A DNA stretch of 64,000 nucleotides, taken from the NCBI GenBank assembly GCA_963204975.1, contig CAUJJC010000272.1, positions 32,402 through 96,401 of the forward strand. The letters are read 5' to 3'. This document shows, in pieces, positions 26,041 through 44,772 of this stretch (position 1 is its first letter; the number at the start of each line of letters is the position of its first letter). The notes below the pieces were generated by a model that ran no database searches, had not been told where the DNA came from, and was given only the letters and a program-made list of their open reading frames with translations. The DNA comes from Verrucomicrobiota bacterium. GTDB lineage: Bacteria > Verrucomicrobiota > Verrucomicrobiia > Verrucomicrobiales > Verrucomicrobiaceae. Both the position numbers and the translations under genes were made by a program.

Positions 26041-27164
26041 TCGCCTGAGGCATCCAGAAACACGAACTCGGCCACACCAGCGCGGATGACGTCGCCATTG
26101 ACGAGCAGCCTGGACTGAACGGCTCCGAGATCATTGACCTCCACGGGATTGGTCGCACTCCGGTTCGTGAGGAGGAGGAATTCGCCTTCGGGTGCCACCT
26201 GGAAGTGCTCGCGGCTCACCCCCGACAGGCCCATCACCTGCCAGGCAGCCTGGGCACCGCGGCCCACCGTCCAGCCGGAATCAATCACCCGGCACTCCAC
26301 GCTGCGATCACGGAGCAGCACCAGCACGGGCTTGTCATGCAGAGCGGGATCGATCTGGTAGCGCAGCCTCTCGATCATGAGGAGACGATCCTGGACGCCC
26401 CGGAGATCGGGCTGCTGAATATCGCCCGCATCAGGATAGGCACGGAGTTTTCGCACCAGGGCTTCGTTGGCCTCGGCACCCGAGGGCTGGAAGACCGTGG
26501 TATCGCTCGCCTCTCTCGCATAATGATCAGCGCTGATCACGAGGATGGCACGCCGGAGCTGCTCCAGGAAACGATCACGCCTCTGGTAGGCTACATTGAG
26601 GTTGGTGTGAAACACCTTGGCCACATAGGCGGCTTCGTAGCGATCCAGCACATAGCCATGCAGCGCATCGAACTCCGCGTGGCTGTATTTGCTGCGCACG
26701 CGGTCGAGGGCCACATCGAGCACAGCCAGCTCCAGCCGAGCTTCATCGGCATCCTTCATCACCGCTTCTTCAAGATCGAGTTCCGGGATGGAAAGAAAGT
26801 CCGAAAGGCAACGCCCGTCCGCGCCGGGAATCGGTGCATCGAGGGACTCGCCGAGGCGCTTGGCATTGCTCGCGCGGCGGCGGAAGGCACGATGAATTTC
26901 GAAGCGCACGATGGAGAACACCCAGGTCCTGAACTTCACGCCATCGCGGCGATGATACATCCCGGTGGCGAGCATTTCGAAGACCTTGGACATGGTCTCC
27001 TGCACCACGTCCATGGCCTCACTTTCATCCAGCCCGTGACGCCGGGCAAAGGCGATGATCTGAGGTGCCAGCCACACGTAGAGATCGTGGCAGTCGCGGC
27101 GGCTCTGGTCTCTGCCGCGCAAGCGGTCCACCAAGGTGTAGCGAGTGTTGTTGTCGGCGCTCAT
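26037..27164 (-). CDS. Sigma-70/ECF-type sigma factor with C-terminal FHA domain
   Basis: Region 2-like LAPQIIAFARRHGLDESEAMDVVQETMSKVFEML...KFRTWVFSIVRFEIHRAFRRR; region-4-like part; C-terminal WTVGRG...GVSREHFQVAPEGEFLLLTNRSATNPVEVND...LLVNGDVIRAGVAEFVFL fits FHA. Confidence 0.85.
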   Translation of the reverse strand: MSADNNTRYTLVDRLRGRDQSRRDCHDLYVWLAPQIIAFARRHGLDESEAMDVVQETMSKVFEMLATGMYHRRDGVKFRTWVFSIVRFEIHRAFRRRASNAKRLGESLDAPIPGADGRCLSDFLSIPELDLEEAVMKDADEARLELAVLDVALDRVRSKYSHAEFDALHGYVLDRYEAAYVAKVFHTNLNVAYQRRDRFLEQLRRAILVISADHYAREASDTTVFQPSGAEANEALVRKLRAYPDAGDIQQPDLRGVQDRLLMIERLRYQIDPALHDKPVLVLLRDRSVECRVIDSGWTVGRGAQAAWQVMGLSGVSREHFQVAPEGEFLLLTNRSATNPVEVNDLGAVQSRLLVNGDVIRAGVAEFVFLDASGE

Positions 27165-27204: not shown

Positions 27205-28209
27205 TCATGGGGCTGAGTGCGAGGGGTTGTAAAGTGAGGAAGCCGCGAAGGTGATATTCTCCACCGAGGCCTCCAGCGACTGACGGAGCAAAGGATCGCC
27301 TGCCATTTGAGCGGTGGCCAGGAGCCGTTCGCGCAAGATGGGAGACCGGATCTCGCGCAAGGCCTTCAGCACGGGCTGCACTTGTTCAGGCGTGGCCTCT
27401 GGAAGGGTGGCATGGTGCAGCAGCGCATCGAGGCTGGACTCATCACCGATGCTGGCTAGGCCGGAGGCGGCAGCGGCCCGGAGGTCTGCATCCTGCTGTC
27501 CGGCGTCCAGCAAGCGCACCAGTGCCGGAGCGGCGGCAGAGGTGCCCACGGTTCTGATGGTGTGCATGAGACGTTCGCGGGCATCTGCCTGAATCGCGGG
27601 ATCGTGCAGCAGTTCCTGCAGGTGCAGAATCGTGTCCTCATCAGCGCTGCGAGCAATCGCATCACTCGCAGCATTGACGAGCACCGCATCACCACCGAGG
27701 GCGATCAAGGAGGTAACCAATTCGCGCCCCTCACGATCCACGCCGACATAGCCTTTGAGCGCAGCGGCGATGAGTTGCCGAGTCTCCGCATCCTTCGTCT
27801 GATGGAAGGCATCAGACAGCGCCTGAAAGGCATCGGCATGATCCATCGCGACCAAGGAGACGGCGAGTGTCTGCCTCTGCTCAGCGGTGCCGCGCTGAAT
27901 CTGATGAACGATTTCGCGGAGCTTCGTGGATCGCTCCTGGTCGTTCATTTCGCGAATCAAGCCCGGCATGTGCGGTGTGTCATGCTGCGCTGGATTTTCA
28001 GAGTGATCACTCGATGCGCCCACCTGCTCACCCATGACCACTCCGCTCGACATTGCCACGGGAGAACCCGAAGCCGTGGAGGGAGCCGCACGGGGAGGAA
28101 TCACCGGGGTCATCTCAAGCCGTGGGCCACTGTCAAACACCTGCCAACCAATGGCAAAGATGACGGGGAGGGCGGCTGAGAAACCAAGGATTGCCGTGCG
28201 AGTGGTCAT
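27205..28209 (-). CDS. HEAT-repeat-like protein with N-terminal TM segment
   Basis: Start MTTRTAILGFSAALPVIFAIGWQVF at 28209; alpha-helical repeats such as APALVRLLDAGQQDADLRAAAASGLASIGDESSLDALL. Confidence 0.7.
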   Translation of the reverse strand: MTTRTAILGFSAALPVIFAIGWQVFDSGPRLEMTPVIPPRAAPSTASGSPVAMSSGVVMGEQVGASSDHSENPAQHDTPHMPGLIREMNDQERSTKLREIVHQIQRGTAEQRQTLAVSLVAMDHADAFQALSDAFHQTKDAETRQLIAAALKGYVGVDREGRELVTSLIALGGDAVLVNAASDAIARSADEDTILHLQELLHDPAIQADARERLMHTIRTVGTSAAAPALVRLLDAGQQDADLRAAAASGLASIGDESSLDALLHHATLPEATPEQVQPVLKALREIRSPILRERLLATAQMAGDPLLRQSLEASVENITFAASSLYNPSHSAP

Positions 28210-28234: not shown

Positions 28235-28675
28235 TCACTGAATGGTAAGAGCGGCGTAGGGGAGCGGCTGGGCAAACATGTTGTTCCCCGTGAACTCGGC
28301 GATCACGATATTCCGCCCTGCGGTGGCCCAGGTGCTGACCAAGAATTTGCACCGCGCATAACCATTGGCATCTGTGTAAACAGAAGTGCCCACACGGGAA
28401 TTCGGATACGTGGGCGTTCCGAAGTAGAAGGAGATAGCGGCAGTCTGAACGCCCGCGCCATTGTCCAGACGTGTGAGCCGTGCGGTGGCAGTGACATACG
28501 TGCCCCTTCGAGCGGTCGTGGTGGAGAGTGATAGAGACATCTGCGTGGGGATCTGGTTGAGCCAGTAGGCAGCCTCAGCGGATGAGGCCGCACCTAGACC
28601 CAGGGCACCGCTAACGATGGCGGCGACGGCATTGCGGCGATTGACTGGAAGGGAGGTATCGGTGTCGGTTTTCAT
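28235..28675 (-). CDS. Secreted Ig-like domain protein with twin-arginine-like signal
   Basis: NRRNAVAAIVSGALGLGAASSAEA signal; body SLSLSTTTARRGTYVTATARLTRLDNGAGVQTAAISFYF resembles bacterial Ig-like folds. Confidence 0.65.
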   Translation of the reverse strand: MKTDTDTSLPVNRRNAVAAIVSGALGLGAASSAEAAYWLNQIPTQMSLSLSTTTARRGTYVTATARLTRLDNGAGVQTAAISFYFGTPTYPNSRVGTSVYTDANGYARCKFLVSTWATAGRNIVIAEFTGNNMFAQPLPYAALTIQ

Positions 28676-28714: not shown

Positions 28715-28745
28715 TTCAGGCCAGGAAGTGGGAGTTTCTTATGGG
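28715..28745 (-). promoter_or_regulatory. Shared upstream motif, copy 1 (upstream of the secreted Ig-like/HEAT/sigma-FHA/lipoprotein/kinase unit)
   Basis: Plus-strand TTCAGGCCAGGAAGTGGGAGTTTCTTATGGG; minus-strand CATAAGAAACT...CTGGCCTGAA, 39 nt before ATG at 28675. Confidence 0.6.
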
Positions 28746-28750
28746 CTGGA

Positions 28751-28803
28751 GAAGAAAAATCGTCGTCTCCCCGGCGGCATGCCTGCCGCCAAGGAGCGAC
28801 GAT
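28751..28803 (-). terminator. Rho-independent terminator after the S8 peptidase gene
   Basis: Minus-strand stem ATCGTCGCTCCttGGCGGCAggcaTGCCGCCggGGAGaCGACGAT followed by TTTTTCTTC; begins 6 nt after the stop at 28809. Confidence 0.85.
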
Positions 28804-28808
28804 CAGAG

Positions 28809-30794
28809 CTAGAATTTCACGACGAGCTTGTAGGCTCCAGGACCGCCTCCGTAGGAGCGCACGCGGATGAAGTAGTAGCCACGGTCCACCTTGATCCGGC
28901 AGCGGAAGTTGCCATTGCCCGCACTGTCGTTGTTTTCAGTGAGGAGCTTGTAGTTGCTACTCGCACCACCGTAAATGTGACCATAGGTGTTGGTGCTGCC
29001 AGAGGTGTAGCAATCGAGATAGCCACTGGTCGGGCAGTAAACGCGGAAGATGTCATTGTCCCGCTCATACTCGAGGGAGCCATTGGTGGTAGAGTTCAGA
29101 GAAAGCGCCTTGTAGTTCGGAACTTCATTGGGAGCATCATCGGCGGTGATAATGCCAGTGCCTTGGACCTTGAACGTCATCGTGGGCACGCCTGGATCGC
29201 TTGTGGTGAATTTCACCAAACAGCTGTGGGTGCCCTCGCGAATGCCTGCGTAACGAATGGTCAGTGTGGTGGACTGCCCTGGGCTGAGGAGGGCCGCATT
29301 GCGAGTGACAATGGTGAAACGATCAGGATGGTCACCACTGAGATTGGCCAGGCCAAGATTGAGCCCGGAGCCGCCTTGATTCTTGATGGTGAAACTGCGG
29401 GTGATCCCTGGTGAATTGACCACCGAGATGCTGCCGAAGTCCGTGCTGTCTCCGGTCCAGGGAGTGAGGTCATTATTGGCAATCTGATTGTTATTGCCGA
29501 AGACGGCGAGCTTGGCAGGGGCTGGTTGTCCGCCCAGTGCCTTCGCCAGATTGAGGCGTCCGCCCGTCGCAGTGCGGCCATTGAACGCAGCCACTTTGTC
29601 CACCGTGGAGAGGATGCGTTGCCTGATATTCTGCCATGACTCGGCTGGAGATACGGCCCAGATCAGAGCGACCGCACCGGCGACGTGAGGTGCCGCCATC
29701 GAAGTGCCACTGATGGTGTGATAGGTGCCGCCAAGCCAAGTTGAGATGATGTCTTGCCCAGGCGCGACAAGGTCCACATCCGCACCGTAGTTGGAGAACC
29801 AAGCGAGCGTGTCCTGACGATTGGAAGCACCCACGCTGATGATGTTGGCATTGGGAAACGAGGCAGGGTAGCTCGGGCTGGTGCCAGTGTTTTTCGCATC
29901 ATTGCCAGCGGCTGCGCAGACTATGATGCCAGCGCCTTCGAGCGCATTCATCTGTGCTTCGAGGAAGGACGAGCGTCCAGTGCTGCCCCATGAGGCATTG
30001 ATGACTTTGGCTCCCATTTTTTGCGCATACTTGAGCACTTCAATGGCGTCACTGATGGACCCGCCACCGGAGGCATCAAGGAACTTGAGGTGCATGATGC
30101 GCGCCAGATGGCTGACTCCTGCACAGCCGATGCCATTGCCGCCCTGGGCTCCAATGGTGCCTGCAGTGTGTGTGCCGTGGCCATTGTCATCCAGCGGAGG
30201 ACGGGAACGATTCACCACATTGATGCCGTGAATATCATCCACGTAGCCATTGCCATCATCATCGAGATTGTTGCCCGCAATCTCACCGTGGTTGATCCAA
30301 CGATTATTCACCAGGTCGGGATGAGTGAGGTCACCTCCAGTGTCGGTATTGGCGATGACAATGGAACGGGAATCCCTGGCAACATTCCAGGCCTCGGGTG
30401 CATCAATGTCGATGTCGTTAGTCTGATGCATACCCCATTGCTGGGCGAACAACTGGTCGTTCGGAATAGCCGACGCCGTAACAAGGTAGTCCGGCTCAAC
30501 CGCATCGTAGAGACCGCTGGCGCGGTATTCTGCGATTACTTTGTCGATCACCGCCGTGGGTTTGACCTTGACCCTAACAAAGCCCACCGTGCCAAACGAT
30601 TCCACCGCGAGAGCGGCAGATCTTGTGTGAGTGCCTTGGAGAGCGGCAGCCGAAGCTGTGGCCTTAGGTTTGAGCAGGACGCGACCAGCGATGCACTTGG
30701 CACCGTTGACAGTCACGATGGCAGTTTGACTGCGCACCGAGGAGAGCGGCGCAATGGCCGCCAGTAGGATAGCGAGAGCTGTGGGGAGCTTCAT
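28809..30794 (-). CDS. Secreted S8 family (subtilisin-like) serine peptidase with C-terminal PPC-like domain
   Basis: Catalytic IVIANTDTGGDLTHPDL, DDNGHGTHTAGTIG, SGTSMAAPHVAGAVALI; C-terminal NSTTNGSLEYERDNDIFRVYCPTSGYLDCYTSGSTNTYGHIYG. Confidence 0.93.
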   Translation of the reverse strand: MKLPTALAILLAAIAPLSSVRSQTAIVTVNGAKCIAGRVLLKPKATASAAALQGTHTRSAALAVESFGTVGFVRVKVKPTAVIDKVIAEYRASGLYDAVEPDYLVTASAIPNDQLFAQQWGMHQTNDIDIDAPEAWNVARDSRSIVIANTDTGGDLTHPDLVNNRWINHGEIAGNNLDDDGNGYVDDIHGINVVNRSRPPLDDNGHGTHTAGTIGAQGGNGIGCAGVSHLARIMHLKFLDASGGGSISDAIEVLKYAQKMGAKVINASWGSTGRSSFLEAQMNALEGAGIIVCAAAGNDAKNTGTSPSYPASFPNANIISVGASNRQDTLAWFSNYGADVDLVAPGQDIISTWLGGTYHTISGTSMAAPHVAGAVALIWAVSPAESWQNIRQRILSTVDKVAAFNGRTATGGRLNLAKALGGQPAPAKLAVFGNNNQIANNDLTPWTGDSTDFGSISVVNSPGITRSFTIKNQGGSGLNLGLANLSGDHPDRFTIVTRNAALLSPGQSTTLTIRYAGIREGTHSCLVKFTTSDPGVPTMTFKVQGTGIITADDAPNEVPNYKALSLNSTTNGSLEYERDNDIFRVYCPTSGYLDCYTSGSTNTYGHIYGGASSNYKLLTENNDSAGNGNFRCRIKVDRGYYFIRVRSYGGGPGAYKLVVKF

Positions 30795-30872
30795 GGGAGT
30801 AGTATGTTTGGAGTGATGAAGCCCGGCGCTGTGAGGGCGTTGTTACCAGCGTCAGCACCGGGGCTTGTGAAT

Positions 30873-30903
30873 TCATGCCGGTGCCCCAGAGGTTCTTATG
30901 CTT
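30873..30903 (-). promoter_or_regulatory. Shared upstream motif, copy 2 (upstream of S8 peptidase gene)
   Basis: Plus-strand TTCATGCCGGTGCCCCAGAGGTTCTTATGCT; minus-strand CATAAGAACCT...CCGGCATGAA, 78 nt before ATG at 30794. Confidence 0.65.
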
Positions 30904-31068
30904 TGCAGGAAAAGTTTTTCTCGTGCCTGCATTCACACCGTTTCAGCCAGTGATGGCGCGTCCCATGACAGCACATCATCCACCATGAACGCGCTCCATC
31001 CGCAGCCTTGAGACAGGCATGGCTATGATGATCTAGCCGAACACTTTTACGAGACTAACAATCCAACG

Positions 31069-34000
31069 CTAAGGCGACGGGCTGATCGTTGCCAGACCAG
31101 AAGTGGAGGGCATCCACACTGCCGTATTGCCAGCAGGCGGAACATCTGGCGTGAGATGGAATCCACGCGCCACTTGACCCGATGGTGCCTGAACCAGCAC
31201 GCCTCGAAAACTCGAAACCAGCGAGACTTCACCTGTTTGATTCAAGTTCTGGCGTCGCGTGGTCAGCGTCCCAAAGAACACACCATTCGCCGGCGTGAAG
31301 GTGAAGGTCACGGCTTGTGTGGAGCCCATCGTTGCCGTCGGACCTGGCAGCCCTCCAGCTTTCAGGGTCAGCAGTGCTTTCGCTGGTGTGAGGAAGCTGG
31401 AATGCGTGAGTTCGAGCGTGGCATTGAAGGGCTTGTCAGCGAGGCCCAGCACCCATTCGGTGGCGGCTGGCTTCGTGTATCGTGCGCCCGTGCAGCTCAA
31501 GCCCAGCGGTCCGAAGCCCTGGTAATGAACAAGCGAGTTCGTGAACCATTGCGGAATGCGCTTCCAGTGAAGATAGCCGCTCAGCGATTGATCAGAGGCA
31601 ACCGTCAGTCTGCCTGCAACAGCATCCGCCAAGGCCGACGAGTGGTAGATCGCCACCTCCCCACCAGGGCCGATGTGCGTGGTGCCGGTATAGACGACGC
31701 CGTCAGCCAGGCAGCCGCTGATCGTGACGATGCCCGCAACCGATGTGCTCAGCGTGACATAACCTTCGCCTTTGGGGCCAGGGCTCGTCAGTTCACTGCG
31801 TGCGAACGTTCCTGTGAAGAGCCCGTCACGGCCACCCGCAGTCGGCATCTTGGGCCATAGCATGAAGGACGCCTCGCTGCTTCCGAGGTTCACATGGCCG
31901 AACAAATGCACATTCCCATTCGCCCCAAAATCGAACGCAATCGTCAGAGGCACATCGCTGTAGGGCAATGTGATCGTCGCCGTCCCGATGACGATCGAAC
32001 TGCCTCGGGAGGCCATCACCCATCCGCTCACTGAATAGGAGTAGTAGCCCAAGTAGAGCTTCCCTGTCCATGACCCTGTGGGAGTGATGGTGACGTCAAA
32101 GCGTCCACCCACGCCGTTATTGATGTCCTCATCAGGATCGACGGTGCCTGTGAAAGTGCCTGCGGCTCCCGAGGGAAGGGCATCAATGGTGAAGTGCAAA
32201 TACGTGCTCACCTTCCCAGCAATATTCGCACCCGTCATTCGGCAGACCAATGGCGTGGTGATTGCCTGGAGCGGGCGTCCGGTGATCCTTCCCGTAACGG
32301 CGTTGAGCTTCAGCCCAGATGGCAGGCGGTCGATACTATAGGATGAAGGACGCACGGCCTGGGACTGATCGAAAGGTGGTGCCAGATCTGTCTCCTGACC
32401 CATCATCAAATTGACCGCTGTAGGCACAGCCGAAAGAGGCAGCGGCAAACGCATGATACGAAGGCTGTGGATGGCAGTCGGAAACGTGCCAGCCGCACAG
32501 GTCACCTCACAGGTGTAGTCAGCCTCATCTCCAGGAGCCAGCTTCCGAACGATTAACGATGCCGAAGTCGCTCCCGTGATCCGGGCATCCGTGGTGACCG
32601 GCACGCCGCCACGCATCCAACGAAACGACAGTCCTGGACCCGCCGCAGGCACGGTCATGATCACCGTTGCGCCCGGCAGTGCGGACCAGCTCCTGGCTCC
32701 CAGATCAGCCACCACCACGGGCACTTCCTGGCCCAGCGTGGTGCCAGCGCTACCCGTTACCCGCAGTCGATAAGTGCCCGCGTGAGACACGAGTGCGCTT
32801 GGGACGCCATAGGCCTGACCGATAGCGCCAGCGATGGCGAGATTGTTCTTGAGCCATTGGTAAGCAGCAGATTGTTCGGTCAACACAGGCGCTTGCAGCA
32901 GCAGCGGACGCCCGGCTTGAATCATCATCGCTGATGGCTGCGATGCGAACTGGACCTCATCATCGACAATCCGAATCACATGCTGCCGCCGGGAGCCAAG
33001 GATCGCTCCGGTGGACGGATCGCCCAAACGAAGCGTGATGCTCTCCCGGCGCTCTATCTCCATGTCCGCCGTCAGCTTGATCGCGATGACGGCTGTGACC
33101 TGGCCACGAGCAAACGAGATCGTGCCAGATGTCGTGGTCGTGTAGTCCACACCCAAGGTGGCAGGCCCTTCGAAAGTGATGGGAACCGAAAAGGCTACGG
33201 CAGGCGCAGGCGATGCCGTGACATAGACATTCACCGTGCCTGCGGACTCTGCTTTGCTCGTCTCCACCTGGGTGAACTGCACTTGCGTGACTAGCTTCAG
33301 TTGGCTGGAGATGACGTTGCTCACCGCACCCGCCTCATTCGAGCCTTTCCGCCGGATGCGGAGGCGCATCCACTGCGTGGGTGAGGTGTCGATCACGGCT
33401 GTCGAAGCCACCTCGATCAACTCCGCAGTATCGACGAGTGTCGCGGTGTCGGGTTCGCCGCTGCGCCAGTTCACAAGGTCATTTGAAACTTCCACGATGT
33501 AATCCAGATCGCTGCGCTGGCCTTGATAAAGGCGCACGCTGAGCACCAGATGGCGTCCGCCGGGTGTGAGATCACCTTCGTTGCCGACCGAAAACAAGCC
33601 GGTGCTGCTGGTGCCGGTCGTGATGGTGTCGATGCGGGCCACTGGTTGCGCACCCGTGTTGCGCACGAGTGGAGCCGTGCCGATGGCGTATTCCAGAAGG
33701 TTGCACAAACCATCGCCATCGGGATCAGCGAAGGAATCGGTGTAGAGCGGACTGGATTGCTGGCTGATGCCGAACTGCGACAACTGCCACGAGCTGGAGG
33801 CCAGCGTGGTATCATAGGACGACACGCTCATCGCCACTCCACCGAATCCGGCGACGGTGATGGGAATCGCGCTGCTGATCTCGCCATTGCCCAGCCCACC
33901 ATGCCAGTTATCCCCCCAAGCGAAGACTTCCCCTGTGTCCGAGAGCGCATACATGCAGGAAGGACTGGCGGACAGTTGCGTGATGCGAGGCAGTCCGACG

Positions 34001-37000
34001 ACGAGCGCTGCCTTGAACGGAGGCACCTGCACTGACGGTGGCAGCGCACGCCCAAGGATTCGTGGCGAATCGCCCCAGGCCCAGACGCGGCCCAGCGAGT
34101 CTAGCGCGAAGACCGCATCATTGGCGATGAACACCGACGAAATGAACGGCAGACCTGCCACCTTGCGCGGCACGGAGATGGCCTTGGCGTAGTCGTAGTT
34201 GGCCTGAGCGGCCCAGTCCACATGACCGAATTCCCATACGGAACCATCGGCGAGGAGCACCACACTTGTCGCATCACCAGCAGCTAGCTGGACCGCACCC
34301 GAGATGCTAGTCACTGGCACTGGAGTGAGACGGTCCACGATGGTGCCGTCACCGAGCTGGCCACGGCTGTTCCGTCCCCAGGCATACACGGTGCCATTCC
34401 GAGTGCGCGCCAGCGTGTGGGCACCTCCGGCGGCGACTTCAACAACGTCGGCCAATCCGTTGACGGTCACCGGCAGGCGACGGTCCGTCGTCGTGCCATC
34501 GCCCACCTGGCCGCGATGATTGCGGCCCCAGGCTTGCACCGTGCCATCGGCCAACGCTGCCACGGCATGATGCGTCATATCAGAGAGTTCGTCTTCGCCG
34601 CTGCTGGCGGAATAGGAAACGACGGTGCCTGCCACGGGCACTTGTCCAGCGAGTTCCGGTGAGGAGGGGCCAGTGCCGAGTTCCTCCACTGGCAGACCGA
34701 GTTCGCCATACCGATTCCAGCCCCAGGCCCAGAGGGTGCCATCGGGCTTTCGAGCGAGCGTGAAGGGCGTGTTCCGATGGGCGGCCACGGCCGACTCCAT
34801 GGCTGGGAATCCAGTGAACGGCTGTGGTTTCATCTCCTCGGGGCTGTTGCCCTCCCAGGCTCCGCCCCACGTCACCCAGGTGCCGTCGGTCTTGCGTGCC
34901 ATGCCGTTCCAGAGCGGGGCCATCCGGTCGATTTGGCTCAGCCCTTCGATCCGCGCAGGTATGGCCCGAGTGCTGGAGACGCCGTTGCCAAGCTCTCCAG
35001 CCACGTTCCTGCCCCAGGTCATGATTTGGCCGCTTCCGGTTGTTAGGACGGTGGAGAAGCGATTGCAGGCGAAGGAGCCCACGCCCTCGGTGAAGTCATA
35101 GGGCAGACGCTCCGGCGCGATCCAGGATGGGTTCGGACCCCTGCCCAGACTGCCGAAGAGATCGTCTCCCCAGGTCCAGATGTCTCCTGAGGCATCCATC
35201 GCGACGGCGAACAACTCACCAGCGGAGATGTAAACGATGTCACTCAGCGCCTCGAACTGACGGGGCTCACGAGCTTCTTCAGGCCAGTGACTGGAAGGCC
35301 CCGCCCCCATGCCACCCCAATACCACACCGTGCCGTCTTCACGCACAAAGTAGGCCGTGTGTCTGTCTTCATACGGCGAGAGGGTGCTGGCGATGAAGGT
35401 CACCTCGGTCAGGTTGGGAATGGGCTGCGGCACCGTCACTGGCATATCGGTGAACTGGTCGTTGCCCCACCACAGGACCGTTCCATCAGCCCGAATCGCA
35501 AAGGATCGGTAGTGCCCCGCAAAGACCATCACGGCATCCGTGATGCCCTGCACTTTGACAGGTGTCCGGGATGAAATAGTGGTGCCATTGCCCAACTGTC
35601 CTTCTTCGTTCTTGCCCCACGCATAGACACTGCCGTCCTGATTGGCGATGACGACGTGACCATCGGCCGCAGCAATCCAGATCGCCTGCGGTTGTGATCC
35701 TGAATCCCACAGACCTGTCACTTGCACGGGCTGACCACTCTGTCCAAAACCGCCATACAGGCTGCCACCAAAGCCCCACACCGTGCCGTTGCTGCGAAGC
35801 ACATAGGAGGCATCTCCCTGGGCGGCCACCATGATGGCATCGTCGATGCCGGGCACGATCACAGGCAAAGGGCTCTCCGCTTCGGGCCATCCATAAGGGC
35901 CAGCCTTCGGGCCGTTCGGGCCGAGCTGTCCATGTCGATTGCTGCCCCAGGCGAAGACCTGCCCTCCATAAATCGCCAGCGTGTAGTCGTTGCCTTTGGC
36001 CACCCGTCCGGCCATCCCCTGCCCGATGGCCATCGCACGCGTCGTCTCCCCCACACCACCGGTGCTGCCGCCGCTGCCCACGAGGTTAGGGGCGTAGAGG
36101 CGGTCCATCACCTTGGCCAAATCCAGTCGCCCGCCAGACAGGCACTTGCCCTTCAGCTTGGTCGATGGCAGCGCCTGCTCGATGATGATCTGGCGTGCCT
36201 GCCGCTCATCGAGGTCTGGTGCCCACATGCGAAGCAAGACCGCTGCACCGCTGACGAAAGGTGCCGCGCCGCTCGTGCCATTGCGTGCCTCATACGTGGT
36301 GCCGCCTGCGCGTGCGCCCCAGATGGTGGTGCCACCCGCAAAGATGTCCACGGTCAGAGCCCCGTAATTGGTCCCGGCTCCTCCCCAGACACTGGGTGCA
36401 TCGGTGGCATCACAGGCACCCACGCTCAAGACGTAGCCACTAGGCACGCAAGCTGGGAAGACGGGGAAACGATCACAATTGGCCTTCGAGTTTCCGGCAG
36501 CAGCCACATGAAGCACTTTGTAGGAGACAGGTTCCACCGGGTTGGAAAACGTCAGCGGCGTCGCCGTGCGGGCGAGGGTGGTGTAGTTGCTCAGTGTGAT
36601 GCTGTTGCTGCCGAGGAGCGTGATCACCGTCTTCGCGGGAATCCCGCTGCCTGTCACCGTCATGCCCACGCGCAGCTTGGCGAGTTCCATGGCACTGCCT
36701 TGGGCGATAATGACATTCTTGTCCTTGGCGAAGGTGGAGGTCAGCCCAGACGGCAGCGGGTCGAGGGTGAGGCGGGAATTGTTGATCACATTGAAGAGCG
36801 CCCGTGAGTAGCCCTGCCCTCCCCAGCTATGATTGCACACGGCCACCTGCTGGCTCTGGAGGTTGAGGCGCTGCACGCAGTTCAGGGCACCGATGGCCGC
36901 GTCATAGGTTCCGTAGGTGCCCACGAGCCTTTTCGTTTTCAGATCGTAGAGGCCTTTGATGATCTTGAGCGGAAACAGCTTCACATTCCAGGCCACGCCG

Positions 37001-38223
37001 GTGAGGCCCAGGCCGTTGTTGCCCTTGGCTCCAATGATGCTGGCCACCCAGGTGCCGTGCCCCACATCGTCCGTGATGAGACTGTTGCCATCCAGGAAGT
37101 TGAACCCACGCACATTGTCCACCGCGCCATCCTGGTCGTTATCCAGGCCATCCGATTCACGGCCCTCGCCGGACTCACCGGGATTGATCCACCATTGGCT
37201 GGCCAGATCAGGATGATTGAGATCGCCGCCCGTGTCCAAGACCACCACAACGTGGCTGTTGGCCATCGCTTGATCCGTATGACCACGAAAAACATCCCAG
37301 CCCTTCTCCGCTCCCATCTTTTTCAGGAACCACTGCGGTCCGGGATTGGTGCCCGCGTAGCCAGGGTCATTGGGAACGGTGGCACTGCCAGCGGTCAGAT
37401 AGTTCGGCTCGGCAAAGGCCACCTCCTCCAGGCTCTCGAACATGGACCGGGCGGACTCGACTTCCAGGCCGAGACTGCGCTCCCATTTCACGAGGTAGAG
37501 CCCCTGCAACGACAAAGGCCGCGCGACCTGCACGCCCGGCGGTAGCACCTTCGCCAGACGCTCCTGCGTTACTCCTGCCTCGGCCTGCACCATCATGCAG
37601 TCCATGGCCAGGGCGTTTTGCCAGAGCTTTCGCGACGAGGGCGATGACGAGGAGGAAGGCGAATCCTGGGGAGCAGACGCACTCGCTAGGACCACCGGAT
37701 CCGCTTGTTCCGACGAGGGAGTGCTGAGGGCGCTGCTAGCCTGCGGTGCAACTACCGCTACAGGTGAAGATGCTTCGAAAATCTCATCCACGCGGACGTA
37801 GGGCACGCTGAATCCAGGAATCGCATAAACCGAGCGCACACGGCGCAACGGAGTGGTCTCAGGAAGATCAAATCCGGCGCGCACATCGGGCTCGCCCGCC
37901 ATGGGCAGGTAGCTCAACTCCTCGCGGCGCTCCAGCCTGCCCGCCCTCGCAATGCCATCGAAGGGCATCGCCGCCACTTCTATCGGTTCTGTCGGCAACG
38001 AACTCGCAGCCGCAACGGCAGGCGAGGCCGAACGTTCATCTGCATCCAACAGACGAACGACTGTCGATTTGACGGCACGATCCTGGTTCGTGCTCTTCAC
38101 CTTCGTGGTGTGAGATGGCGAAGCGCCCGTCAGGTTCCAGAAGACGAGACTCACCACGACTAGCCCCAGGACAAGCAGGACTCGCCGAAGCACAAGAGGT
38201 AGCTTTGCAGGTGTTGCAGACAT
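31069..38223 (-). CDS. Giant secreted/surface S8 serine peptidase with RCC1 repeats, Calx-beta-like and Ig-like domains
   Basis: 2384 aa; N-terminal TM; catalytic VVVLDTGGDLNHPDL, DVGHGTWVASIIG, NGTSGAAPFVSGAAVLL; about 10-12 RCC1-like units (e.g. VYAWGKNEEGQLGNGTTISSRTPVKV). Confidence 0.92.
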   Translation of the reverse strand: MSATPAKLPLVLRRVLLVLGLVVVSLVFWNLTGASPSHTTKVKSTNQDRAVKSTVVRLLDADERSASPAVAAASSLPTEPIEVAAMPFDGIARAGRLERREELSYLPMAGEPDVRAGFDLPETTPLRRVRSVYAIPGFSVPYVRVDEIFEASSPVAVVAPQASSALSTPSSEQADPVVLASASAPQDSPSSSSSPSSRKLWQNALAMDCMMVQAEAGVTQERLAKVLPPGVQVARPLSLQGLYLVKWERSLGLEVESARSMFESLEEVAFAEPNYLTAGSATVPNDPGYAGTNPGPQWFLKKMGAEKGWDVFRGHTDQAMANSHVVVVLDTGGDLNHPDLASQWWINPGESGEGRESDGLDNDQDGAVDNVRGFNFLDGNSLITDDVGHGTWVASIIGAKGNNGLGLTGVAWNVKLFPLKIIKGLYDLKTKRLVGTYGTYDAAIGALNCVQRLNLQSQQVAVCNHSWGGQGYSRALFNVINNSRLTLDPLPSGLTSTFAKDKNVIIAQGSAMELAKLRVGMTVTGSGIPAKTVITLLGSNSITLSNYTTLARTATPLTFSNPVEPVSYKVLHVAAAGNSKANCDRFPVFPACVPSGYVLSVGACDATDAPSVWGGAGTNYGALTVDIFAGGTTIWGARAGGTTYEARNGTSGAAPFVSGAAVLLRMWAPDLDERQARQIIIEQALPSTKLKGKCLSGGRLDLAKVMDRLYAPNLVGSGGSTGGVGETTRAMAIGQGMAGRVAKGNDYTLAIYGGQVFAWGSNRHGQLGPNGPKAGPYGWPEAESPLPVIVPGIDDAIMVAAQGDASYVLRSNGTVWGFGGSLYGGFGQSGQPVQVTGLWDSGSQPQAIWIAAADGHVVIANQDGSVYAWGKNEEGQLGNGTTISSRTPVKVQGITDAVMVFAGHYRSFAIRADGTVLWWGNDQFTDMPVTVPQPIPNLTEVTFIASTLSPYEDRHTAYFVREDGTVWYWGGMGAGPSSHWPEEAREPRQFEALSDIVYISAGELFAVAMDASGDIWTWGDDLFGSLGRGPNPSWIAPERLPYDFTEGVGSFACNRFSTVLTTGSGQIMTWGRNVAGELGNGVSSTRAIPARIEGLSQIDRMAPLWNGMARKTDGTWVTWGGAWEGNSPEEMKPQPFTGFPAMESAVAAHRNTPFTLARKPDGTLWAWGWNRYGELGLPVEELGTGPSSPELAGQVPVAGTVVSYSASSGEDELSDMTHHAVAALADGTVQAWGRNHRGQVGDGTTTDRRLPVTVNGLADVVEVAAGGAHTLARTRNGTVYAWGRNSRGQLGDGTIVDRLTPVPVTSISGAVQLAAGDATSVVLLADGSVWEFGHVDWAAQANYDYAKAISVPRKVAGLPFISSVFIANDAVFALDSLGRVWAWGDSPRILGRALPPSVQVPPFKAALVVGLPRITQLSASPSCMYALSDTGEVFAWGDNWHGGLGNGEISSAIPITVAGFGGVAMSVSSYDTTLASSSWQLSQFGISQQSSPLYTDSFADPDGDGLCNLLEYAIGTAPLVRNTGAQPVARIDTITTGTSSTGLFSVGNEGDLTPGGRHLVLSVRLYQGQRSDLDYIVEVSNDLVNWRSGEPDTATLVDTAELIEVASTAVIDTSPTQWMRLRIRRKGSNEAGAVSNVISSQLKLVTQVQFTQVETSKAESAGTVNVYVTASPAPAVAFSVPITFEGPATLGVDYTTTTSGTISFARGQVTAVIAIKLTADMEIERRESITLRLGDPSTGAILGSRRQHVIRIVDDEVQFASQPSAMMIQAGRPLLLQAPVLTEQSAAYQWLKNNLAIAGAIGQAYGVPSALVSHAGTYRLRVTGSAGTTLGQEVPVVVADLGARSWSALPGATVIMTVPAAGPGLSFRWMRGGVPVTTDARITGATSASLIVRKLAPGDEADYTCEVTCAAGTFPTAIHSLRIMRLPLPLSAVPTAVNLMMGQETDLAPPFDQSQAVRPSSYSIDRLPSGLKLNAVTGRITGRPLQAITTPLVCRMTGANIAGKVSTYLHFTIDALPSGAAGTFTGTVDPDEDINNGVGGRFDVTITPTGSWTGKLYLGYYSYSVSGWVMASRGSSIVIGTATITLPYSDVPLTIAFDFGANGNVHLFGHVNLGSSEASFMLWPKMPTAGGRDGLFTGTFARSELTSPGPKGEGYVTLSTSVAGIVTISGCLADGVVYTGTTHIGPGGEVAIYHSSALADAVAGRLTVASDQSLSGYLHWKRIPQWFTNSLVHYQGFGPLGLSCTGARYTKPAATEWVLGLADKPFNATLELTHSSFLTPAKALLTLKAGGLPGPTATMGSTQAVTFTFTPANGVFFGTLTTRRQNLNQTGEVSLVSSFRGVLVQAPSGQVARGFHLTPDVPPAGNTAVWMPSTSGLATISPSP

Positions 38224-38226
38224 GGC

Positions 38227-40032
38227 TTAGAACGCAGGACGCGTGTTGTAAGGATGCTGGGTCAGGCCACCGCCCGTCGTGAGTGTGCCGTGGGTTCCAT
38301 TATTGTATTGGTGCTGGTTCGAGTGGACGCTGGCGCTGCCCGACACGCTCACCTGGCTGCCCGTATTCACGCGCACCTTGTCCCCGGAGATCACCGCGTG
38401 AGGAGTGGTCAACTGCACCTGGCCGTCGAACACGACAGCGCCCGCGCCCTCGGCATACAGGCGCATCTGCACGTCAGCATCGTAACTGCCACCACGAATG
38501 AACAAGGCATCGCCCGCACCGGCCCAGCCACGCACTCGCAGCACGCGTGCCGACATCGTGGCGTCGAGCAGAGTCACCTTTCCACTACTCACTCCATCAC
38601 CGGCCAAGGCGTCGATGGTGAGCGTGCCTTTGTCGGCACGCAGAGTCGAGGCCGACACCAGCACATCGCCCCCTCCTGAAGCGAGACTCACATGCTCGAT
38701 CAAGGACAGCAGTTGTGACGACTGCTCAATGGTGATGCTGGTGGGCACGGTGATCTCGCCCACGCTCAACCGACGGTTCGCTGTGACCTCGCTGGCGGAG
38801 ATGTGGACCGCTTGCGGTGCAGTCGCCGTGGAACTCCCGCCGATGGACACCGTCCCGCCACGCAGGGTGCTGTTCGCAATGATCACGTCACCCGTTGTCG
38901 CGTGCAGGTGCAGCAGCTCACTCACGTCCAGTGCATCCCCGGCTTTCAAGACGCTGCCCGTCACCTCCAGCGCTGGTGCGATGAACTTGAGCGCCACATC
39001 GGGCGGAGTCAGCACATTCGCCGTGTCCACATCGACGACTGTCACCGAGGAATCGGTGGTGCTGAACTCCAGTGTTCGGTCGGTGCCGCCAAACAGATCG
39101 GCATCCGCGCGCAGGGTGCCGTGAATTCGCGGCTGCATGAGGGTGACGCCATTGTCCACGGCACTCAGCTTCACCCGATAAAGCTGAGTAGCGGCACCAT
39201 CGCGAAAAAATGTGGTGTTGCCCACATCGAAATACCCGATGCCGTCGTCGTGCTCCCTCACGGCAAGCACCGCCTCAGGATTATCCTCACGATTTGTGAC
39301 CGAGAAGATGGTCGCTTCATCGCGCGGCAGCGCTGCGCTTGCAGCGGTGCTCGCAGGAGCCGCAGGGCGAACAAGCGCCAGCTCAGGCGATGCTCCCCGC
39401 ATCAAGAAGGGCGTCATCCGCAGCGAGCCGGAGTCCAAAGCCATCTGCTGGCCCGCGATGGCTGCATCCATCAGCGCCTGGGTGCTGAGCGGCCCCAAGC
39501 CGTTCGTGAGCGTGCTGGTGTCTGCGAGTCGGCCCAGATCGACCTGCACAGGCGAGGGCAGCGCCTTGGCCGTGGGCTGCACCAGCAGTTCATCGCCTGC
39601 CTGCAGAGTCACACTTTCGCCGAGCAAGGACTGGAGCGCGATCTCCACGGTGCCTTCGCGGCAGATGAACTTCACCCACCGCCCTGGAAGGTAGAGCGCC
39701 AGCACGGTCCCTGTTACCCGCATTCGGAAGTTAGGCATCGAGACAGGGATTGATCGACGGCGCGCAGCGGGATCGCTCCCGACCAGCACGAGACCGCGAT
39801 CCAGCGCCACACCTCCGTTCTTTGTCAGGCGCACCTCCGTGTTGGAGCCCGTGATCAGGAAGCCCGCATCGCCTGCGAGCTTGGCCCGGCTCTTTTGTCC
39901 GGTGCTGAATGCTGCGCCCTCGGCCAGATGCGCTCCTGCTCTGGCACTCGCCTTGCCCACGACGCGCTCGACCGTGGCGCTTTGAACGGCACCGGCGACG
40001 ACGAGCAGCAAAAGCTGGAGAACTTTGTTCAT
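38227..40032 (-). CDS. FecR domain-containing protein
   Basis: VERVVGKASARAGAHLAEGAAFSTGQKSRAKLAGDAGFLITGSNTEVRL...MRVTGTVLALYLPGRWVKFICREGTVEI; start MNKVLQLLLL at 40032. Confidence 0.85.
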   Translation of the reverse strand: MNKVLQLLLLVVAGAVQSATVERVVGKASARAGAHLAEGAAFSTGQKSRAKLAGDAGFLITGSNTEVRLTKNGGVALDRGLVLVGSDPAARRRSIPVSMPNFRMRVTGTVLALYLPGRWVKFICREGTVEIALQSLLGESVTLQAGDELLVQPTAKALPSPVQVDLGRLADTSTLTNGLGPLSTQALMDAAIAGQQMALDSGSLRMTPFLMRGASPELALVRPAAPASTAASAALPRDEATIFSVTNREDNPEAVLAVREHDDGIGYFDVGNTTFFRDGAATQLYRVKLSAVDNGVTLMQPRIHGTLRADADLFGGTDRTLEFSTTDSSVTVVDVDTANVLTPPDVALKFIAPALEVTGSVLKAGDALDVSELLHLHATTGDVIIANSTLRGGTVSIGGSSTATAPQAVHISASEVTANRRLSVGEITVPTSITIEQSSQLLSLIEHVSLASGGGDVLVSASTLRADKGTLTIDALAGDGVSSGKVTLLDATMSARVLRVRGWAGAGDALFIRGGSYDADVQMRLYAEGAGAVVFDGQVQLTTPHAVISGDKVRVNTGSQVSVSGSASVHSNQHQYNNGTHGTLTTGGGLTQHPYNTRPAF

Positions 40033-40036
40033 GACT

Positions 40037-40993
40037 CTAGAATCGGGCATTGAAGAACAGACCGCCGCCGGTCACGAGGTTGTCATAGTCAAAGAAGGAA
40101 ACCGATGAGCGGTTGAAGGTCATGCTGCCCATGATGCCCACCTTGGCCCAGGAGGTGACCTCGTAAGCGACGCCCAACTGAACGACGTGATTCCAGTCCT
40201 GGCGGTCCACTTCCCGATAGTGATGCCAGCCCGCGCGGTAGCTGCCCGTGATGGTCAGGCGAGTGCGGAGCCGGAGCCGTGTGCCCGCATAGGCGCTGTA
40301 TTCATCGCGCCCAGGCCCAGCGGGCTCGGGAGCGAGGCTGATGTCCGCCATCATCCCGGCGACGAATTCTAGGCCGGACCTGGGTTTCCACAGCTTCTGA
40401 ATCAAGACGCTGGCGAGGTGATCATCGAAGGCGTGGCTGGTGAGATCGGATTGTGAAATGCGATACCAGGACCAGCCCGCGCTGATCATGGTGCGCAACG
40501 CAGGCAGCTCGTAGGTCAGGGCCAGATCGGACCGGGTGAGGTTGAAGTCGAGGGCGCTGAAGCGGTCGTGCAAATACACATGGCTGGCCACGCTGGCATT
40601 CACACTCCAGGGGCCAGCGATGCGGTTGTTGTATTGCGCGGTCACTCCACCTCGAAGGTAGGCATCCCCCAGCTCACCGTCCCTGGCCAGCCCCACGTTG
40701 TCGGTGTAAAAATACTGCGCATCAGCCTCGACGAGCCAGGGCTCCCACTCGGCCTTCACCTGCTTCTTGAGGAACCGCTGCTCGCCGATTTCTTCATCGT
40801 AGCCATGGAGGCCCGCTGCCTCATGGAGTAACGCGGGAGCGCCTTGGGAAGGAAGTTCCTTGGAGGCCGCTTGCAACGAGCGCAGTCCCCTCTCAGCCCG
40901 TGCATTCTCCAGGACGCTGGTCTCCTGGGCAGTCAAGGTGACTGCCAGGCACAACGGCCAAAGTGCTCGGAGAATGGACAGGGCTGATTTCAT
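40037..40993 (-). CDS. Outer-membrane beta-barrel protein
   Basis: Signal peptide, alternating amphipathic strands, C-terminal ...GGGLFFNARF ending in F. Confidence 0.75.
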   Translation of the reverse strand: MKSALSILRALWPLCLAVTLTAQETSVLENARAERGLRSLQAASKELPSQGAPALLHEAAGLHGYDEEIGEQRFLKKQVKAEWEPWLVEADAQYFYTDNVGLARDGELGDAYLRGGVTAQYNNRIAGPWSVNASVASHVYLHDRFSALDFNLTRSDLALTYELPALRTMISAGWSWYRISQSDLTSHAFDDHLASVLIQKLWKPRSGLEFVAGMMADISLAPEPAGPGRDEYSAYAGTRLRLRTRLTITGSYRAGWHHYREVDRQDWNHVVQLGVAYEVTSWAKVGIMGSMTFNRSSVSFFDYDNLVTGGGLFFNARF

Positions 40994-41000
40994 CGACTTG

Positions 41001-42062
41001 TCATGGTTCCAGCAACGAGCGGGTCTGGCTATTCTTTTTGAACCAGTCCATCAAAAGCTGCTTCCGGTCCGTAGTGCCGGGAGCGCGCCAGAGATTATTC
41101 GCACTGGTGCCCACATGCTCGACGGACCAGCCATCCCATTCACGGAAGGCATGGTAGGCCCAGTTCCATCCCTTGGACTCCATGAAGGCGATCACGTCAG
41201 CGAGGTATCGCTTGGCACTATCCCCCGGCGCAAAACACACGGCGCTAAACTCGCCAATGAAGATGCGCGCATTGTTAGCCTTCTGGAAATCCACCACGGG
41301 CTGAAACCACCGGGCGACTGCCGCCGCATCCCAGTAGGCGCTGCCAATCTTCCCAGGATACGAGATTCCCTGTGGCCGCCCATATAGCCCCTGGTGTGTG
41401 AAGATCCCCGGTGCATACATGTGAGCCGAGTAGATGATGCGTGGGAGGGCGATCTTTTTGAGCTGGGTGAATCGGCGGGGATCTCCATACGGGCTTTCAA
41501 CAATGATTCGGCGCGCCGGATCGATGGCCGCAATCAGATGTGCGGTCTTATCTGCTACGGACTGCCACTTGGCCACATACTTGTCATTGCCTGTGCAAGG
41601 CTCATTCAGAAGGTCGAACGCAAACACGGCGGGATGCCCTTTGTAGCGATTGGCGATGATCTTCCAGAAGGTGTAAAAGCAACCCTCTCCCCACGCGGTG
41701 TGAAACATCCGATACGTCGGATAGGCTGAGCGATCACTGAATCCGCCCGGCGGTGTGTGCAAGTCGATCACCACGCCGATGCCACGTTGAGCGAACAGCG
41801 GCAGCATCGTATCCATTTGCGCGATCTGCTGATTGATCCAGCTCTGGTAGGCCTTCAGCGTCATGTTGTCCGCCGTCGCTGCGTCAGGTATCGTCAATTG
41901 CCAACGAGCGAGGTTCGCGCCCATGTCCGCCAGTCCATTGATGGTTGAAGCATCTGGGTTGGGCGGGATCATAGCGCCCCGCCTCGTGGTTTGAGCTTCG
42001 AGAGATGACCGCCCGGCAAACAGCAAGGTCAGGCAAAGGAAAAGGGTGAAGGTGGATTTCAT
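41001..42062 (-). CDS. Glycoside hydrolase family 5 (cellulase-like) secreted protein
   Basis: VFAFDLLNEPCTGND (acid/base NEP) and ARIFIGEFSAVCF (nucleophile) in a TIM-barrel-like sequence with signal peptide. Confidence 0.88.
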   Translation of the reverse strand: MKSTFTLFLCLTLLFAGRSSLEAQTTRRGAMIPPNPDASTINGLADMGANLARWQLTIPDAATADNMTLKAYQSWINQQIAQMDTMLPLFAQRGIGVVIDLHTPPGGFSDRSAYPTYRMFHTAWGEGCFYTFWKIIANRYKGHPAVFAFDLLNEPCTGNDKYVAKWQSVADKTAHLIAAIDPARRIIVESPYGDPRRFTQLKKIALPRIIYSAHMYAPGIFTHQGLYGRPQGISYPGKIGSAYWDAAAVARWFQPVVDFQKANNARIFIGEFSAVCFAPGDSAKRYLADVIAFMESKGWNWAYHAFREWDGWSVEHVGTSANNLWRAPGTTDRKQLLMDWFKKNSQTRSLLEP

Positions 42063-42121
42063 GGCTGGATGGAGGCTTGGATGATGGGGGCTAGGCGGAA
42101 TCTGCTGCCTTCCCTTTTCAG

Positions 42122-42152
42122 TTCATGCCCGGTCCCCGCAGAATCTTATGCT
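42122..42152 (-). promoter_or_regulatory. Shared upstream motif, copy 3 (upstream of the GH5/OMP/FecR/S8-RCC1 operon)
   Basis: Plus-strand TTCATGCCCGGTCCCCGCAGAATCTTATGCT; minus-strand CATAAGATTCT...CCGGGCATGAA, 59 nt before ATG at 42062; 24/31 identical to copy 2. Confidence 0.65.
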
Positions 42153-42261
42153 CTGGTTTGAAATATATTTCCGGCCCCACAAAAACGCCCTTCCAAGCCA
42201 TTCGAGAAGGCGACCGAGCACTTTCCCCGTGCTCGGCCCCGTTCTAGCACTACCTCTTTCC

Positions 42262-42831
42262 ATGCGCACCCTCAGCCCTACCCGACAGATCAGGGAACGA
42301 TCTTCATCACCTCGGCACCGTCGTGGTGCCGAAACCCTGCGCTTTGCGACAGCTCCCACCAGCTTGGGGCTTGTGCTGGTCGCCGCGTCCACCCACGGCG
42401 TCTGTGCGATCCTCATGGGTGACGATGCGAATGCTCTGGTGGATGACCTTCAACAACGGTTCCCCGACGCTTCCCTGCTTCGCGATAATCCGAGCGTTCA
42501 AAGCACCATGAACCAAGTCATTTCGACTATCGAATCGCCGGGCTGCCCATTCGATCTCCCACTGGATCTGCGAGGCACCGCGTTTCAGCAGCGCGTGTGG
42601 CAGGCCCTGACGCGCATTCCTGCGGGCGAGCCGGTCAGCTACACCGAGTTGGCTGAGATGATCGGTTCGCCCCAAGCCGTGCGCGCGGCGGCTGGAGCGT
42701 GTGCTGCCAATGCCCTGGCTGTGGTGATTCCCTGCCACCGAGTGCTGCGCCACGATGGCCGCATCTCAGGCTATCGCTGGGGAGTTGAACGGAAACGACA
42801 ACTGCTCGCTCGCGAAGCCGCTCGTGCATGA
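42262..42831 (+). CDS. Methylated-DNA--[protein]-cysteine S-methyltransferase (Ada C-terminal-like)
   Basis: RGTAFQQRVWQALTRIPAGEPVSYTELAEMIGSPQAVRAAAGACAANALAVVIPCHRVLRHDGRISGYRWGVERKRQLL. Confidence 0.95.
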   Translation: MRTLSPTRQIRERSSSPRHRRGAETLRFATAPTSLGLVLVAASTHGVCAILMGDDANALVDDLQQRFPDASLLRDNPSVQSTMNQVISTIESPGCPFDLPLDLRGTAFQQRVWQALTRIPAGEPVSYTELAEMIGSPQAVRAAAGACAANALAVVIPCHRVLRHDGRISGYRWGVERKRQLLAREAARA

Positions 42832-43433
42832 ACTTGTTTGCTCCCGATCCCTCGCTCAACCTTCTGCCTCGTGATGGCGAGGTCGTTTATCATGGGCCAG
42901 TCCTCTCGCCAAGCGAGGCATCGCGCTGCTTCGACTCATTGAAGGCCGAAGTGCCGTGGCAAAACGATGAAGTGGTGATCTTTGGCAAACGCTTCGTGAC
43001 CGCTCGCAAGGTGGCCTGGTATGGCGACGACGCCTTTGCCTACACCTACTCAGGCACTACCCGACACGCGTTGCCGTGGACGGCGGAGTTGCTCAGGCTC
43101 AAGGCCAAGGTGGAGCTGATCGCGGGAACGACCTTCAACTCCTGCCTGATCAATCTCTACCACCACGGCGAGGAAGGCATGTCGTGGCACAGCGATGATG
43201 AGCCCACACTCGTTCGAGGTGAGACGATTGCGTCCATGAGTCTCGGAGCCGAACGAAAGTTCGCCTTCAAGCACAAGCGCGAACCAGGGCTCACCGCATC
43301 CATCATGCTGGAGCACGGCAGCCTTTTGCTGATGAAAGGAGCCACGCAAGAGCACTGGCTCCATGCCTTGCCAAAGACCAAGCGCGTCACCACACCACGC
43401 ATCAATCTGACGTTTCGTGTGATGGTGCGATGA
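42828..43433 (+). CDS. AlkB-like 2OG-Fe(II) dioxygenase
   Basis: NSCLINLYHHGEEGMSWHSDDEPTLVRGETIASMSLGAERKFAFKHK...HWLHALPKTKRVTTPRINLTFR; 4-bp ATGA overlap with preceding gene. Confidence 0.93.
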   Translation: MNLFAPDPSLNLLPRDGEVVYHGPVLSPSEASRCFDSLKAEVPWQNDEVVIFGKRFVTARKVAWYGDDAFAYTYSGTTRHALPWTAELLRLKAKVELIAGTTFNSCLINLYHHGEEGMSWHSDDEPTLVRGETIASMSLGAERKFAFKHKREPGLTASIMLEHGSLLLMKGATQEHWLHALPKTKRVTTPRINLTFRVMVR

Positions 43434-43470: not shown

Positions 43471-44772
43471 TCAATGCACCGCGAAGGTCACCGCTGGCGG
43501 CACGTCCTTCACCATGTGCTGGCAGAGGAAGCGGAGGAAGCCCTGGCTGTAGCGGGAACGTGTTTTTCCTCCGCTGGCCATGGCGGCGATCTGGAAATTC
43601 GCATGGCGCTCGAGCAATCGCACCCAATGCCACCTGGCATACGTGCGGCTGAGCTGCTGCCCACCTTGGTAGGCGCGGAAGATCTCGCCATTGTAGAAAT
43701 ACTCCACCAGGCTCATCCAGGCGTTGTGCCACTCGACGACATTCTTCGAGTAGATCTCCAGGGCGTGTTTGAGTGCCGTGGGCTGTTTGAGGATGGAAGT
43801 GCCCTTGGCAAAGACGTGCTCGTCGAGCAGGCGTGCGCCTTCGAGGGCCATGAAGAGACCCGGTGAGAGCATGGGATCAACGAAACCAAAAGCATCACCC
43901 AGCAAGATCCAGCCAGGGCCATAGCCGCGCTCGGAGAGGAGCTGATAGTTGGTGTAGGTCATCACGTCCGTCACACGTCGTGCGTTGGCACCTTTGTCGC
44001 GCAGCAAGGGCTCGCGCTTGATGATGTTCTCCAGGCGTTCTTCGGGAGTGTCGCCCAGGTCCTTCAGGTGCTCCTTGTTGATGACCACGCCGACGCTTAG
44101 CCGACCAGGCAAGGGGATGCGCCAGCTCCAGCCCTGCGTCAGCACGGAGATGATGATTTGACCCTCCGGCACCTCGTCGTGAGCGAAGTTCTCATAGTGC
44201 GCGAAGTAGGCCACGTCGTTGCGCTTGCCCTTCACGGAGGGGATGTCCATGAGCTTCGAAAAGGTGCGAGCACGTCCGCTGGAATCAATCAACAAGGGAT
44301 CATGCTCCTCTGGCAGGCCTGCGACCGAACGACTCTGCGCACTGAGTCGCACCGAGGGTTCGCCATTTTGATCGCAGCGCTCGAGTTCGGCTCTTGCCTT
44401 CACAAAACGTGCGCCCAGTTCCTCGGCGCGCGTGCGCAACAAGTTGTCGAGTTCCGGGCGCGGAGCGTTGTAGGAATACGGTGGCAGGTAACCCTTCACG
44501 GACATGAAGTTGAAGTGCAGCTTGTCACCTGCCGTGGTGAAGAACGAGGCACCGGGCTTGTATTGGCAGAACTGCTTCACCCGGTCCTCAATGTCGAGGT
44601 GGCGGAAGACATTGACCACCGCCGGAATGAGCGACTCACCCACTAGCAGATCGGGGCGTTTCTCGTCATCAAACACGAGCACCGGGATGCCGCGCTTGGC
44701 AATCATCGCCGCCAGCGTGCATCCAGCCGGGCCGGCGCCAACGATAACGACTTCGGGGAGTGGTGGGTTCAT
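43471..44772 (-). CDS. FAD-dependent oxidoreductase (halogenase/geranylgeranyl-reductase-like)
   Basis: VVIVGAGPAGCTLAAMIAKRGIPVLVFD; GDAFGFVDPMLSPGLFMALEGARLL. Confidence 0.85.
   Translation of the reverse strand: MNPPLPEVVIVGAGPAGCTLAAMIAKRGIPVLVFDDEKRPDLLVGESLIPAVVNVFRHLDIEDRVKQFCQYKPGASFFTTAGDKLHFNFMSVKGYLPPYSYNAPRPELDNLLRTRAEELGARFVKARAELERCDQNGEPSVRLSAQSRSVAGLPEEHDPLLIDSSGRARTFSKLMDIPSVKGKRNDVAYFAHYENFAHDEVPEGQIIISVLTQGWSWRIPLPGRLSVGVVINKEHLKDLGDTPEERLENIIKREPLLRDKGANARRVTDVMTYTNYQLLSERGYGPGWILLGDAFGFVDPMLSPGLFMALEGARLLDEHVFAKGTSILKQPTALKHALEIYSKNVVEWHNAWMSLVEYFYNGEIFRAYQGGQQLSRTYARWHWVRLLERHANFQIAAMASGGKTRSRYSQGFLRFLCQHMVKDVPPAVTFAVH

Follow-up and report, generated by a model that had tools for sequence, protein, structure and literature searches.

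Three repeated sites in a Verrucomicrobiota gene cluster as probable promoters of an FHA-fused ECF-type sigma factor

ECF41 sigma factors carry a fused C-terminal regulatory domain and have few local targets; their promoters, TGTCACA-N16-CGTC, are bipartite, have a spacing of 16 ± 1 and lie upstream of genes in the same cluster (PMC3426412). ECF43 factors, exemplified by EcfP/PknT and EcfK/PknS (PMC8999054, PMC13147305), are encoded beside a Ser/Thr kinase and have lost the acidic DxxD motif of region 2.2. Kinase-linked ECF sigma factors beyond ECF43 are hardly characterised, and work on them has been called for (PMC8999054). GarA and OdhI are FHA regulators that are phosphorylated by Ser/Thr kinases and regulate metabolic enzymes.

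The locus described here lies in a 64,000-nucleotide stretch of a Verrucomicrobiota genome (the window). A minus-strand gene at 26037–27164 encodes an ECF-type sigma factor of 375 residues whose C-terminal part is a fused FHA domain resembling GarA (sigma-FHA), and three repeated sites in the surrounding cluster are very probably autoregulated, cluster-specific promoters of this factor. The overall plan is that of ECF41, with a fused C-terminal domain, few local targets and a bipartite promoter of similar spacing ahead of cluster genes. However, the fused domain is an FHA domain here and a SnoaL-like extension in ECF41 (PMC8999054), the promoter elements are CRTAAGA (−35) and CMTGAA or CAATA (−10) instead of TGTCACA and CGTC, and the protein does not fall within ECF41. 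As in ECF43, the sigma factor gene stands beside a Ser/Thr kinase gene, here within the same operon, and an anti-sigma factor was not recognised nearby. By contrast with ECF43, the acidic region 2.2 motif is retained (EAMDVVQE, within EAMDVVQET, which fits DxxDxxQE) and an FHA domain is carried, so activation probably differs between the two. The likeness to GarA and OdhI is one of FHA fold, as judged by profile comparison, whereas the FHA domain here goes with a sigma factor, to which it is joined or next to which it is encoded. Our literature search found no description of FHA-fused ECF factors or of the motif; the main ECF classification lay outside that search and may already number the group.

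Assignment of the protein rests on several matches of unequal strength. Sigma region 2 is clear (PF04542, 4e-11; 43 bits against a cut-off of 24), and region 4 is rated a weak match because TIGR02937, which covers residues 25–206, scores 40.2 against its cut-off of 42.9. The protein has region 2 and a region 4-like part without regions 1.1 and 3, the composition of ECF (group 4) factors. A profile of the sigma-FHA family compared with the PDB matches the FHA domains of GarA/OdhI (1.6e-17) as well as ECF sigma factors, and the FHA hallmark residues (G-R, S-x-x-H and N) appear in the alignment as VGR, SREH and N. The Pfam match of the FHA part, to Yop-YscD_cpl, stays under its cut-off, and a structure predicted from a two-sequence input (pLDDT 41.7) was too poor for use.

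The sigma factor gene is part of a tight operon behind site 1, all on the minus strand: an Ig-like protein with a Tat-like signal (28235–28675; signal judged from sequence, no Pfam match), a HEAT-repeat protein with an N-terminal membrane segment (27205–28209), sigma-FHA, a predicted lipoprotein (25369–26040, overlapping the sigma gene by 4 nt) and a Ser/Thr protein kinase with a transmembrane segment and TPR repeats (22958–25357). Matches of this kinase in a defence library were dismissed as generic kinase matches. Site 2 precedes a secreted S8 subtilase with a PPC domain (28809–30794, minus strand). Site 3 heads a four-gene operon on the same strand, consisting of a GH5 glycoside hydrolase (41001–42062), a BBP2-like outer-membrane beta-barrel protein (40037–40993), a FecR-like secreted protein (38227–40050; a weak Pfam match, below cut-off) and, at its end, a giant S8 subtilase of 2384 residues with RCC1, Calx-beta and Ig domains (31069–38223). 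Divergent from site 3, at 42148–43433 on the plus strand, lies an apparent alkylation-repair pair of tandem genes, one O6-methylguanine methyltransferase-like and the other for an AlkB-like 2OG-Fe(II) oxygenase. Further along, at 43471–46157 on the minus strand, a FAD-dependent halogenase-like gene stands beside two adjoining pieces of an AMP-binding enzyme (44769–45422 and 45429–46157), possibly a split or frameshifted gene.

The initial annotation had reported three gapless minus-strand 31-mers, and these were found again in the window sequence, at 28715–28745, 30872–30902 and 42122–42152, with 17 positions invariant in all three and 24/31 identical between copies 2 and 3. The positions originally given for sites 1 and 3 are exact; that of site 2 was one base off, and the site lies 77 rather than 78 nt from its ATG. 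The distances to the ATG are thus 39, 77 and 59 nt for sites 1, 2 and 3. The core promoter sites read CATAAGA-N14-GGCCTGAA at site 1 (28715–28743, with the ATG at 28675) and CATAAGA-N14-GGCATGAA at sites 2 (30872–30900) and 3 (42122–42150). When the 43 regions upstream of genes in the window were searched without gaps and without prior knowledge of the motif, the highest-scoring triple (17/31) consisted of precisely these sites; the best scores in Markov simulations of the same search were 13–16, and 17/31 was never reached (0/60). The pattern itself, chosen post hoc, matches three times in the window against 0.04 expected.

Each site pairs two short blocks at a spacing of about 16 nt, CATAAGA-N16-CMTGAA, placed 39–77 nt from the ATG, as is characteristic of ECF-type promoters. 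CATAAGA would be the −35 element and GGC(A/C)TGAA would contain the −10 element, with 16 nt from the −35 block to the CMTGAA core; sigma-FHA would recognise the sites directly, and transcription is predicted to start just downstream, a few nucleotides beyond the −10. A CGTC-like −10, which is typical of ECF promoters without being universal, is absent from the three sites, which have CMTGAA (CAATA in the wider family). A strong intrinsic terminator hairpin (28757–28804, minus strand; −38.7 kcal/mol, followed by a U-tract) separates site 1 from the S8 gene that precedes it, and the sigma operon therefore needs a promoter of its own there. The A/T-rich tract upstream of site 1 (28750–28760, minus strand) doubles as the U-tail of this terminator. 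The suggestion of an alternative-sigma promoter, made in the initial annotation, is strongly supported by the ECF-FHA gene behind site 1, the ECF-like geometry and the related motif at distant sigma-FHA loci.

Were the sites instead operators of an activator or repressor, with the housekeeping sigma factor carrying out transcription, their conserved bipartite form and the A/T palindrome near sites 2 and 3 would be accounted for; we regard this as improbable. The two blocks are asymmetric, and their spacing is fixed at 14 nt here and held to 12–15 nt family-wide. A search for a sigma-70-like promoter near the three sites found none, and in distant genomes the motif goes along with sigma-FHA genes. 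Inspection of the three sites also gave no match to the sigma-54 promoter TGGCAC-N5-TTGC. Sites 2 and 3 do have the palindromes noted earlier, but in the sister species (G003) their exact symmetry is lost while A/T-richness is kept, and the palindromic operator reading was rejected on that ground. These boxes, GAAAAACTTTTC upstream of site 2 (30909–30920, minus strand) and GAAATATATTTC upstream of site 3 (42160–42171, minus strand), are better read as UP-like tracts, and would probably act as UP-like promoter elements.

Recognition by another sigma factor is still less likely. The genome does hold several further ECF genes that are broadly of this type, yet the sites are confined to the sigma-FHA cluster, and the related motif is absent at the loci of other ECF factors. 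In a scan of the 6.18-Mb genome, these three sites were the only perfect matches and no further match had fewer than two mismatches; the remaining matches were scattered, the next best with two mismatches and the others with three. The three sites are real, and they are local rather than markers of a genome-wide regulon; the secreted-protein regulon proposed at the outset is not borne out on the genome scale.

The sister species, of the same genus (sigma factor 91% identical), has the same cluster with all three sites at orthologous places. Mismatches to the pattern number one at site 1, two at site 2 and one at site 3. Pooled over the sites, the invariant positions are conserved in 47/51 cases, against 239/338 aligned flanking positions (Fisher p = 4e-4). 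Site 3 leaves the clearest footprint, its motif and A/T tract standing out from diverged flanks. The GH5 gene behind it has been internally deleted in this species, leaving two end remnants (L039/L040, G003:C40 at about 232.8–233.0 kb), and the site has been kept before the barrel–FecR–S8 operon although the middle of GH5 is lost. Chance likeness, or common ancestry of duplicated upstream regions, might be entertained since the genome has only three copies and S8 peptidases are encoded in two of the regulated units, but it is scarcely credible given the simulations, the retention in the sister species despite diverged flanks, and upstream regions that are little alike outside the motif and the A/T tract.

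The sigma-FHA arrangement constitutes a family, in which the two parts are fused, as here and in some distant genomes, or encoded by two adjacent genes. Many relatives in Verrucomicrobiota adjoin a related motif, CRTAAGA-N12-15-GSCAAT(A), which in many cases is preceded at a short distance by an A/T tract; control ECF/kinase loci lacked the motif. The −10 forms differ (GGCMTGAA here, GSCAATA in the family), so the link to the family motif rests on the shared −35, the spacing and the gene context. The expression [CG][AG]TAAGA-N12-14-G[GC]CAATA has 10 matches in the sigma-FHA loci (194 kb) and none in the loci of other ECF factors used as controls (173 kb; simulation: 0 expected). Since some of the loci counted had served to refine the expression, the count is circular in part. 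A scan of 385 genomes of the class is a fairer test. It gave 14 hits, a total no higher than that of reversed-pattern controls, so that only the clustering of hits is informative; at least three copies occur in just two genomes, G231 and G225, each of which has a sigma-FHA pair. The family pattern had been supplied by G231, whereas G225 was not known beforehand to hold a sigma-FHA pair; the pair was recognised after the scan pointed there, with one site at the sigma/FHA junction. The six hits elsewhere all fall within predicted coding sequence. With a stricter pattern, 390 genomes of the phylum gave 11 hits, eight of them in G231 and G225, again the only two with at least three sites. Recognisable sites were not found at the sigma-FHA loci of G384, G193, G196 and G302, and only imperfect ones were found in G158 and G195. 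A shorter pattern, GCATAAGA-N12-15-SCAAT, was too loose to discriminate across the family.

Elsewhere in this bacterial family, genes preceded by the motif encode an S8+PPC subtilase in G019 and, at a second locus of G003, a PPC+caspase-like protein, echoing the S8+PPC target here. At L041:7350–8858 (minus strand), a family promoter is followed by the gene for a caspase-like protein that has two PPC domains and is predicted to be secreted, and in G231 the motif stands ahead of predicted secreted or lipoprotein genes. In three relatives of the class (L055, L119 and L051), a conserved family of secreted proteins of about 320 residues, 35–50% identical and in part LPP20-like, is encoded after the sigma-FHA pair. 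Within the neighbourhoods examined, a kinase gene accompanies this cluster, its ortholog and 4/13 other loci; its presence near sigma-FHA is recurrent, not universal.

Autoregulation of a sigma factor gene is usual in ECF systems. Site 1 would drive the operon of sigma-FHA itself, including the Ser/Thr kinase, in a feedback loop, and the adjacent units behind sites 2 and 3, which encode secreted peptidases, a glycoside hydrolase and an outer-membrane barrel, would be transcribed from those sites. The pairing of kinase and FHA domain suggests that the kinase may control the sigma factor through binding of phosphothreonine by the FHA domain. Ahead of that domain, sigma-FHA has the sequence TTVF, which we take to resemble the phosphorylated N-terminal motif of GarA and OdhI. 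TTVF is not conserved across the family, so phosphothreonine-dependent control is a point that we infer.

We put forward, tentatively and at rather less than even confidence, that these proteins form an undescribed ECF group of Verrucomicrobiota whose regulator is a GarA-like FHA domain, either fused to the sigma factor or encoded beside it. A Ser/Thr kinase would switch the factor through phosphothreonine–FHA binding, and the factor would activate CRTAAGA-type promoters of secreted proteases and of its own gene. The locus offers a concrete prediction of the genes that a little-studied type of regulator would switch on. The family supplies natural variants, with the FHA domain fused or split and the −10 element of two types. 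With sigma factor, FHA domain, kinase, motif and targets in hand alongside these variants, promoter specificity is directly testable, and so is what the FHA domain does.
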